Shown here piece after piece: positions 47,415 through 50,152 of a stretch of DNA of 64,000 nucleotides. The number at the start of each line of letters is the position of its first letter. Within the stretch, counting starts at the first letter, position 1. The translations under genes and the position numbers were made by a program. Source of the stretch: an uncultured Acidimicrobiales bacterium (lineage in GTDB: Bacteria; Actinomycetota; Acidimicrobiia; Acidimicrobiales; CATQHL01); contig CATQHL010000001.1 in assembly GCA_958295925.1 (NCBI GenBank), positions 464,676-528,675 on the forward strand, given 5' to 3'. The notes under the pieces were generated by a model, which had not been told where the DNA came from, searched no databases, and saw only the letters and a list, made by a program, of their open reading frames with translations.

Positions 47415-49094
47415 CTACGCCGCGGTGACGGCCCCCCGCTCGGCTCCCTGAGCGAGCCGGGCGTACTTGGCCAGGAATCCTGAGTCGTAGCGCGGAGGTG
47501 GGGCCTTCCAGGCGTCTCGGCGCCCGGCAAGCACCTCGGGCGGCACCAGCACGTCAATGACGTGCTTCCTCACGTCGATATGGATGCGGTCGCCGTCCTC
47601 CACCAGCGCCAGAGGCCCTCCCTCTGAAGCCTCGGGTGCCACATGACCAATGCAGAACCCGTGCGTACCTCCGGAAAAGCGCCCGTCGGTCACCAGAGCG
47701 GCGTCAGCGCCCCGCCCGGCGCCCTTCATCGCCCCCGTGATGGCCAGCATCTCCCGCATGCCCGGCCCCCCCTTTGGGCCTTCGTATCTGATCACCACCA
47801 CGTCGCCGGCGTTGATGCCACCCGCCAACACCACGGCCATGGCGTCGTCTTCGCTGTCGAACACCCTGGCAGAGCCCTCGAATCTGTCCGAGTCGATTCC
47901 CGCCACCTTCACCACCGCCCCGGCGGGAGCCAGGCTGCCGGTGAGAACCGCTATGCCGCCGATGTCCCAGATGGGGTCGTCAAAGGAGTGGATGACGCTG
48001 CCGTCGGGGGCGGGCGGGTCGAGTTCCGCCAGGTTCTCCCCCATTGTCCTGCCCGTGACGGTGAGGGCGTCGCCGTGGATCAGCCCCTCCTCGGAAAGCA
48101 TCCGCAGCACCACCGGTATGCCACCCACCCGGTCAATGTCGAGCATGTGGAAGCGTCCGTGGGGCTTGGTGTCGGCCAGGTGCGGCACCTTGCCCGCTAT
48201 GCGGTTGAAGTCGTCCAGCTCCAGGGAGACCCGCGCCTCGTACGCGATTGCCAGCAGGTGAAGCACGGCGTTCGTGGAGCCGCCCAACGCCATCACAAGT
48301 GCGATTGCGTTCTCGAAGGCCTCCTTGCCGAGGATGTCCCGGGGGCGTATGCCGGCCCGCAACAGCTCAATCACCGCCCGCCCGCTCGCATAGGCGATAT
48401 CGTCCCTGCGCGAGTCAGGCGCTGCGGGCGAGGCGCTTCCCGGCAGCGACATGCCCAGCCCCTCCCCCACTGAGGCCATCGTGTTAGCGGTAAACATCCC
48501 GGCGCAGCTGCCCTCGCTGGGGCAGGCGTTGCGCTCGATCTCGCTGAGTTCCTCGCTGTCAATGCCACCAACGGCGTGAGCCCCCACCGCCTCGAAAACA
48601 CTCACGATGTCGAGCGTGCGCTCCCCGATTCTCCCAGGAAGGATGGATCCGCCGTAGACGAAAACGCTGGGCAGGTTGATTCGGGCAGCCGCCATGAGCA
48701 TGCCTGGCAGCGACTTGTCGCACCCTGCAAACCCCACAAAGGCGTCGAGGCGCTCGCCGTGCATCACCGCCTCCACCGAGTCGGCGATGATCTCCCTGCT
48801 TACCAGCGATGCCCGCATGCCCTCGGTGCCCATGGAGATGGCGTCGCTCACTGCGATGGTGTTGAACTCCATCGGAAAGCCGCCAGCGCGCCGCACGCCG
48901 TCTTTGCAGCGCCGAGCCAGCCTCGACAGCGGGAGGTTGCACGGGGTGACCTCGTTCCAGGAAGAGGCCACCCCGACCTGCGGCTTGTCCCAGTCGTCGT
49001 CTGTCATCCCCACTGCCCGCAGCATTGCCCGCTGCGGCGCCCGCTGGGGGCCTGAGGTGACTTCGTGGCTTCTGATCTTCAGGTCTTTGGTCAT
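47415..49094 (-). CDS. ilvD: Dihydroxy-acid dehydratase
   Basis: 559 residues. Cysteines for the Fe-S cluster are in [20 protein letters not shown] and [12 protein letters not shown]; the C-terminal [16 protein letters not shown] and [19 protein letters not shown] motifs are intact. It converts dihydroxy-acids to 2-keto acids in the same pathway as ilvBNC, lying 272 bp upstream of ilvB on the same strand and separated from it by the attenuator. ATG 49094. Confidence 0.97.
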
Positions 49095-49371
49095 GGCATT
49101 CAGAGTATTCCCTTGCTGGCCCGCGCGCGGCGCAAGGCGCGCTCAGGTTTGGAGGGACGTGTATGCCCAGTCTGCGGCGGCGGTAGAATCCCATTGGGCA
49201 GAGGGCTGCAACCTTGGCAAGTCGAAGCCTTAGGCGCGAACCGATGCCGGGGGTTCTCACGATCGCCAGGCTCGGCTGAAACCTGGGAAAGCCGAAGCCC
49301 AAGCACAAGCCCCAAAGCCCAAGGCACAAGCCGAATCTGCGGAAAGTCGCATCAGAAAGACAGAAAGCCCA
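49095..49371. other. Divergent region between ilvD and the SelW-like gene
   Basis: 'ccttggcaagtcgaagcc' (49212) and 'cctgggaaagccgaagcc' (49282) are degenerate copies, and 'aagccca' words follow up to the SelW-like start (49366-49371), an echo-type pattern. No gene seen. Promoters for both flanking genes must be here but are not obvious. Confidence 0.45.
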
Positions 49372-49656
49372 ATGTGGTCCTCACCCAAGAAGCACGAAGT
49401 TTCCATCACCTACTGCGTCCCTTGAGACTATTCCTCGAGTGCCGTGAGCGCCGCCAAGGAACTCCTAATTGCATACCAGCACGTCATCTCCGAGCTCAAG
49501 CTCATTACTGGCACCGCAGGCATCTTCGAAGTGAGCATCGACGGGGAATTGGTGTTTTCCAAGCACGCCTGTGCTGACCGCTTCCCCCACCCGGGCGAAC
49601 TGACCGAGGCATTCACCAAAATCGCCGGCCTCGACGTCCCCCGTTTCGGGACTTAG
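49372..49656 (+). CDS. SelW/Rdx-family selenoprotein candidate (UGA-encoded Sec at codon 18)
   Basis: The frame from ATG 49372 reads MWSSPKKHEVSITYCVP, then TGA (49423-49425), then DYSSSAVSAAKELLIAYQHV to a TAG at 49656. If TGA is read as selenocysteine this is a 94-residue protein with a CxxU redox motif (C15-V-P-U18) after a first beta strand. LITGTAGIFEVSIDGELVFSKH and RFPHPGEL follow in the right places for the thioredoxin-fold Rdx (SelW/SelT/SelH) family, whose motif is CxxC or CxxU. Without recoding, translation from GTG 49444 would lack the whole first strand and active site. A hairpin just after the TGA fits a bacterial SECIS. selA, selB, selC and selD are not in this window. Confidence 0.8.
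49423..49461 (+). promoter_or_regulatory. Candidate bacterial SECIS element
   Basis: Starting at the TGA, TTCCT (49431-49435) can pair with AGGAA (49457-49461), and GTGC (49439-49442) with GCGC (49448-49451; one G-U) around a CGTGA loop. The apical loop is about 18-22 nt after the TGA and has G as its second base, as in bacterial SECIS models. The internal part is imperfect. Confidence 0.5.
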
Positions 49657-49750
49657 ATCGTCAGAACCCTCGGCCCCTGGAGGCAGGCCAGCGGCCCGAC
49701 TCCTGGAGGTCCCCCGTTTCTGGACTTAGGACGTCAGACCGGCCTGATCG
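49657..49750 (+). repeat. Echo of the SelW-like gene's 3' end
   Basis: 'gtcccccgtttctggactta', then ggacgtcag (49710-49738), repeats 'gtcccccgtttcgggactta', then gatcgtcag (49638-49666), which includes the stop codon of the SelW-like gene. The copy is 72 bp downstream. Confidence 0.9.
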
Positions 49751-50152
49751 TCAGGCCGACCTGTCGACCAAGTCTGACATCTTTCGCCTGAGGGCCGCAA
49801 GCGACTCTCCCGAAGCCCCTGCGAGCATCGGGCGCAGGCCGAAGAGGACCCGCTCATACGCTCCCGAGAGCTTGAGCCTGCCCTGCATGTACGCCACCGC
49901 AGGAGAGAGATGGCCGTCCAGCATCGCCAGGGCTTCCTCGAAATCGACCTCCACCTTGCAGTCGGCATTCGCCTGAAGACCCGAGGAAGCCTCCAGGAGA
50001 CGCCCGTCCTCCAGACGCAGCCCAAGCCGCATCTTGCCCGATGGCGTCCCGGAGACTTCCAGGCGCAGGCTCACGCTGCAGCCAGGCACTTCAGTCAGGT
50101 CGGCTGTCTCCGTCGCCAGGGCAGCCAGCCATTCATCACTCAGGAAACGCAC
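49751..50152 (-). CDS. SCP2 sterol-carrier-domain protein
   Basis: 133 residues. The SCP2 fold is suggested by RLEVSGTPSGKMRLGLRLEDGRL, ADCKVEVDFEEALAMLDGHLSPAVAYMQGRLKLSGAYE (here only KVEVDFEEALAML and AYMQGRLKLSG need be noted) and the closing helix. SCP2 domains bind lipids or acyl-CoAs non-specifically. It is the gene after mca on the same strand, 13 bp away, so probably cotranscribed; a functional link is unclear. Confidence 0.8.
   Translation of the reverse strand: MRFLSDEWLAALATETADLTEVPGCSVSLRLEVSGTPSGKMRLGLRLEDGRLLEASSGLQANADCKVEVDFEEALAMLDGHLSPAVAYMQGRLKLSGAYERVLFGLRPMLAGASGESLAALRRKMSDLVDRSA

Follow-up and report, generated by a model that had tools for sequence, protein, structure and literature searches.

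A SelW-like gene of an uncultured Acidimicrobiales bacterium with an active-site UGA that is very probably read as selenocysteine

Main finding

In this analysis of a stretch of DNA from an uncultured Acidimicrobiales bacterium (64,000 nucleotides, hereafter the window), we found that positions 49372-49656 of the forward strand very probably encode a SelW-like protein of the Rdx family, the active-site UGA of which would be read as selenocysteine (Sec), as judged from the sequence of the gene, its relatives and its genome. The features to which the text refers are as follows:

49372..49656, + strand: predicted selenoprotein gene of the Rdx family, selW-like, running from ATG to TAG, 94 aa; from profile matches and relatives
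49414..49425, + strand: CxxU active-site motif C15-V16-P17-U18, from the translation; the Cys forms carry CxxC here
49423..49425, + strand: in-frame UGA codon predicted to be read as selenocysteine (U18); same site in 70 of the 70 rows read
49436..49453, + strand: predicted bacterial SECIS hairpin, upper stem 49439-49442/49448-49451, loop CGUGA 49443-49447; from covariation in 62 distinct sequences
49444..49445, + strand: GU of the predicted SECIS loop, with which the Val25 codon begins; all 70 Sec rows read have GTN
47415..49094, - strand: ilvD (dihydroxy-acid dehydratase), divergent neighbour of selW; f30 and f34 are further families that have it near selW
49751-50152, - strand: SCP2-domain gene on the other flank of selW, from the ORF list

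The gene and its product

The frame runs from the ATG at 49372 to the TAG at 49654-49656, and its sole interruption is the TGA at 49423-49425, on either side of which it is intact. The translation, which begins MWSSPKKHEVSITYCVP-U-DYSSSA, is 94 residues long and has its U at position 18; given at greater length, it reads MWSSPKKHEVSITYCVP-U-DYSSSAVSAAKELL...VPRFGT. The preliminary description of this DNA had reported an Rdx-like domain in a frame broken only by this TGA, and the profile matches bear it out: the read-through product scored 63.4 bits against the Pfam Rdx model PF10262 (E 2.2e-17, cut-off 22.6) and 49.5 bits against TIGR02174 (cut-off 34.2). When all six frames of the genome were searched with PF10262 (E up to 0.001), this locus, with one TGA inside, was the only match.

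The structural model agrees with this assignment. An AlphaFold2 model that was built from seven sequences (mean pLDDT 88.9, pTM 0.80; 76.3-88.9 across the five models) has a strand at residues 8-15, and C15-U18 sits at the end of that strand, which is the C-x-x-C/U arrangement of a thioredoxin-like fold. When compared with the PDB, the model matched 21 chains with E up to 0.001, which came from 2oka, 2fa8, 2obk, 3dex, 2p0g and 2ojl and had TM values of 0.76-0.83 by query length; the SelW-related structures were on top, and thioredoxins stood lower in the list. The same six entries were recovered by sequence, five at E up to 5e-5 and 2p0g at 0.062. Among them, 3dex (SAV_2001 of Streptomyces avermitilis), 2fa8, 2oka and 2obk are SelW-related proteins of the Cys type that share the family and the fold. 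The sequence of 3dex matched the window protein with an E of 2e-9, and both 3dex and 2fa8 align a Cys to its U18 and hence need no UGA decoding.

Because UGA is taken for a stop, ordinary ORF calling shortens the gene. As had been predicted, the mechanical ORF list contained, in this frame, only a 70-aa ORF that starts with the GTG at 49444 and ends at 49656. This output is what one would expect if only the short form were made and the UGA were the true stop of a leader, an explanation that we consider highly improbable. The short form would lose the first strand (residues 8-15) together with the CxxU motif that is invariant in the rows read; moreover, the GTG at 49444 is the Val25 codon, whose GU never varies in the 70 rows, 22 of which have GTT (17) or GTC (5) there instead.

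Selenocysteine machinery of the genome

The source genome (3.2 Mb in 3 contigs, 94% complete) contains all four components of Sec decoding, each above its cut-off, namely selA (386.7 bits, cut-off 267.9), selB, which follows it at a distance of about 0.1 kb (262.9 bits, cut-off 242.25), selD (347.6 bits, cut-off 125) and tRNA-Sec (67 bits, gathering threshold 47), the last of which was called SeC with the anticodon TCA by ARAGORN. These are the genes that the preliminary description had proposed to look for. Additionally, selD has an in-frame TGA of its own, YSRGAG-U-AGK (L018:1531-1533), whose U we take to be the catalytic Cys/Sec position of SelD; judging by this codon, the SelD of the same genome is probably also a selenoprotein. 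With the formate dehydrogenase alpha model, one frame of 861 aa was hit in two parts, below the cut-off and with no TGA, a search of the genome for a CMD/AhpD-like selenoprotein gave three matches, none of them with a TGA, and the GRDB and PrdB models had no match in the genome and no control match either. Among the few families tried, selW and selD were the only selenoprotein genes found, a list that is incomplete.

Relatives and the exchange of selenocysteine and cysteine

In a class-wide draw, TIGR02174 was found in 97 of 247 genomes at 98 places, 96 of which had one TGA and two of which had none, so that the TGA form of selW occurred in 95 of the 247 genomes. In a phylum-wide draw the family was present in 56 of 396 genomes (in 54 above the cut-off), and the match contained a TGA in 40 of these 56 and lacked it in 16. 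The earlier statement that selenoproteins of this family are unusual in Actinomycetota finds no support in these counts, and the 95 genomes of the class suggest that these bacteria are regular users of SelW-like proteins.

The codon-by-codon reading took in 70 of the 96 TGA places, i.e., 69 loci of relatives and the window. The TGA is the U of a C-x-x-U motif in every one of these rows, which form two groups: CVP-U in 23 rows, the window and 14 order-mates with a match among them, and another C-x-x-U in 47. Both groups occur in G125, with one gene each (L033 and L071). The window protein itself is somewhat diverged, with 31-55% identity to 14 relatives and one inserted residue near residue 69 relative to the others in the alignment. 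Such divergence could be expected of a gene in which a CxxC codon had been lost by a plain nonsense mutation or miscalled, i.e., of a pseudogene or a sequencing error; we give this explanation almost no weight, since the TGA occupies the same codon in all of the rows read and is internal in 96 of the 98 class matches, the frame is intact on both sides of it and the hairpin behind it covaries.

Forms without a TGA were also found. In the class, the one in G152 is a fragment that lies at the start of a contig, while the one in G004 (L021) has CTQC and is a Cys form; the best tRNA-Sec score of G004 has an E of 3.3e-8, within the range that other tRNAs reach. Outside the class, 20 selW places were fetched, 17 with and three without a TGA. 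All four complete TGA-less forms that came from the genome searches (L021 and L154-L156) have Cys at the Sec site, and one of them, L154 of family f72, matches by eye almost all of the printed portion of the S. avermitilis protein 3dex, a resemblance that speaks for Actinomycetota as the phylum. Six further Cys forms (L089-L094) came from a contig scan with alignment A1, the single pattern of which read the active-site residue as Cys and therefore returned only Cys forms, at six loci. Thus, Sec and Cys are exchanged at the UGA site among homologues, and codon 18 was U or C in the relatives read, which was the comparison that had been suggested earlier.

The occurrence of tRNA-Sec, which was called at E up to 1e-10, follows the TGA form: it was found in 91 of the 95 TGA-form genomes versus 72 of the 150 genomes without the family (Fisher p 1e-16, uncorrected for kinship), with G004 (Cys form) and G152 (fragment) excluded from both groups. 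The four TGA-form genomes in which no tRNA-Sec was found at this threshold, G032 (L072), G104, G232 and G245, are all multi-contig, and missing contigs or decay may account for them. These data also bear on the idea that the UGA is read as an amino acid other than Sec, either by a reassigned code or by near-cognate read-through. Read-through alone would likewise yield a full-length protein; the idea is nevertheless very unlikely because TGA is the terminal stop of the selW frame in 46 of the 69 relatives read, Cys is the counterpart in the TGA-less forms, and the full Sec machinery is present and co-occurs with the TGA form. On the evidence given against each of them, the pseudogene, the sequencing error, the short GTG form and the other reassignment of UGA were all rejected.

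The probable SECIS hairpin in the class

According to the preliminary description, a hairpin with a G in its apical loop follows the UGA at the distance of a bacterial SECIS, and this fits what we found, both in the covariation and in the published limits. In the window, the hairpin lies 17 nt after the UGA, and two more pairs, C49436-G49453 and G49437-C49452, extend the upper stem past the bulged A49438. In the consensus of the class, counted from the T of the TGA, nt 15-20 pair with nt 26-31 and nt 21-25 form the loop, for which each of the 70 rows has N-GU-N-N. Of the six pairs of the consensus, two (15-31 and 16-30) are non-canonical in the window.

The support for the SECIS comes from the relatives. 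Single-sequence folding was not significant: a 43-nt slice of the window folded alone had a z of -1.09, with 22 of 200 shuffles folding at least as well, and other folds win in the 60-nt and 81-nt slices. Across the 62 distinct sequences, 94.4% of the cells were paired versus 89.6 ± 0.7 in shuffles and 26 cells carried double changes versus 8.8 ± 2.6 (kinship not removed), values that were reached by 0 of 500 shuffles in both cases. Two weaker measures were the pairs with a double change, four of six versus 2.1 ± 0.8 (reached by 22 of 500), and the further pair types, nine versus 7.7 ± 0.7 (reached by 60 of 500). Control stems that had been slid along had 18-56% of their cells paired. These results support a stem that is kept by compensatory changes.

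PMC13188914 gives as limits for the bacterial SECIS an apical loop of 3-9 nt with a G in its first two positions, an upper stem of 4-16 bp, a distance of 16-37 nt from the UGA and an MFE up to -7.5 kcal/mol. Measured against these values, the window has a loop of 5 nt with the G second, 4 bp plus two past the bulge, the 17 nt mentioned above and an MFE of -10.7 kcal/mol on 43 nt, or only -5.3 on slices of 31-36 nt, so that it falls within them. Among the 70 class rows, at least four contiguous consensus pairs were present in 65, an MFE of -7.5 was reached in some slice of 33-49 nt by 68, and the predicted fold included the two inner pairs in 63. The only place in the genome that the SECIS model R1 matched was the window, which belongs to the R1 training set. 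The Rfam search around the gene gave no meaningful match; three sub-threshold matches to microRNA families lie downstream, at 49729-49783.

The loop also coincides with a conserved residue. All 70 Sec rows of the class have Val at residue 25, as do 15 of the 17 Sec rows of other classes; in the Cys forms (L021, L089-L094 and L154-L156, by eye) the residue is F, L, A or S, with Val in 0 of 10, a distribution that is to be expected if the RNA demands GU. The simplest reading of these alignments would be that the RNA element, rather than the protein, fixes residue 25, which suggests that an RNA constraint may determine a protein residue.

Proposed mechanism

We are nearly certain that the gene encodes a SelW-like selenoprotein of the Rdx family with a thioredoxin-like fold into which Sec would be inserted at codon 18. 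SelB carrying Sec-tRNA-Sec (anticodon UCA) would bind the hairpin just 3' of the UGA, and the ribosome would then place selenocysteine at codon 18, which would create the CxxU site. The product would most likely be a thiol/selenol oxidoreductase: Sec18 would attack disulfides or peroxides and form a selenenylsulfide with Cys15, which a thiol donor would reset. We infer the actual Sec insertion, the redox chemistry and the partners from the features described above.

A second hairpin register

The sequence GCCGTCGGTCTG(G/A)CG is common to 15 of the 17 Sec forms fetched from other classes (L138-L152). In their consensus fold, nt 20-24 pair with nt 30-34 around the loop GGUCU, i.e., in a register about 4-5 nt further 3' than that of the hairpin of the class; the loop presumably resembles that of E. 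coli fdhF. Of the two remaining forms, L137 keeps the stem of the second register with the loop AGUUU, and L153 fits neither register. The two registers are non-exclusive. All six pairs of the first stem were present in 58 of the 70 class rows, and all five pairs of the second stem were also present in 11 of the 70; in the rows from other classes the corresponding numbers were one of 17 and 15 of 17. In the window's class, L067 (loop GGUCU) and L072 (loop AGUUU) have five of the five second-register pairs and four of the six class-stem pairs.

A hairpin that slid 3' in the other classes would be the better fit to these alignments, which is not proof. That homologous selW genes in one phylum place the SECIS hairpin in either of two positions over the same codons, offset by about 4-5 nt, is a possibility that we would entertain but not yet favour. 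If it is true, the two registers would represent a switch between lineages in how SelB recognises the RNA, by which Val25 would be dictated as well. The hairpin variants offer a ready-made set with which to test the recognition by SelB.

Comparison with known systems

SelW-like bacterial selenoproteins were already in print by 2006, as can be seen from the available portion of PMC1794560, in which SelW-like is listed among 25 bacterial selenoprotein families and has ten bacterial members, one of them in Symbiobacterium, which was then placed under Actinobacteria. In the available portion of PMC2398784, 427 SelW-like sequences made up the largest selenoprotein family in the GOS ocean samples, and the part of PMC9402790 at hand puts SelW-like at 11.3% of the selenoprotein genes. 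As far as the excerpts of PMC1794560 and PMC2398784 go, these proteins are like the product of the window gene in having CxxU, an in-frame UGA and a SECIS just downstream. The window gene differs from them in its class, for which no SelW was named in the literature found: among the titles and the beginnings of abstracts on selenoproteins with Acidimicrobiia, Actinomarina, Actinomycetota or Actinobacteria, a body of text outside which most subscription papers fall, no SelW was described in the class. The spread of the selW selenoprotein in this class was likewise not found in print within that material. Members of the class are candidate sources of the SelW-like family that is abundant in the GOS ocean samples, as described in the accessible part of PMC2398784.

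The same kind of hairpin as in the window gene was described for SelW of Epsilonproteobacteria in the part of PMC4607533 that is available: a hairpin of 5/6 bp a few nt after the UGA, with an invariant loop G, that was likened to the E. coli minimal SECIS. The same text mentions that some SelW genes had been missed in annotation. The window product differs from that group in that it does not reach the curated cut-off of the NF041051 SelTWH_Campy equivalog (69.6 bits versus 88 bits).

Genomic neighbourhood

A first tblastn search covered 76 loci, whose flanks were of unequal length, and found ilvD in 11, ten from family f30 and one from f34. When 41 neighbourhoods of the class with flanks of up to 5 kb were compared (40 fetched loci, some shortened by contig ends, and the window), ilvD lay within 5 kb of selW in seven, namely in the window (f1), in G188 (f34) and, within f30, in five of the six genomes examined. 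Besides the window, the loci with ilvD or, in G181, ilvC and ilvBN nearby are L116, L118-L121, L135 and L104. The orientation of ilvD to selW varies among divergent, tandem and convergent, and in other classes ilvD was near selW in 0 of 20 neighbourhoods. This proximity could reflect either repeated retention or chance plus kinship. Because selW is near ilvD in three families and in different orientations, SelW might conceivably serve the branched-chain amino acid pathway, e.g., by protecting the Fe-S cluster of IlvD; this is the weaker reading and a lead only, one that was prompted by the window itself. The clustering of ORFs of at least 90 aa was uninformative about shared neighbours: only two groups spanned four families or more, a mixed one from 23 genomes, whose members lie across selW and ilvD, for the most part antisense to them, and a second one from four genomes. 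In G181, ilvC and ilvBN were observed 3-5 kb from selW.

The promoter scan upstream of selW gave no consensus promoter, no clear ribosome-binding site of selW was seen by eye, and the viral contigs scanned with the window protein held no relative. Short repeats of the CCCAAG/ACAAGCC type lie immediately upstream of the selW start, at 49298-49372. At the other end of the gene, there is a 37-nt direct repeat (49629-49665 and 49702-49738), the copies of which are 86% identical and 73 nt apart, and the first copy spans the final codons and the stop of selW.
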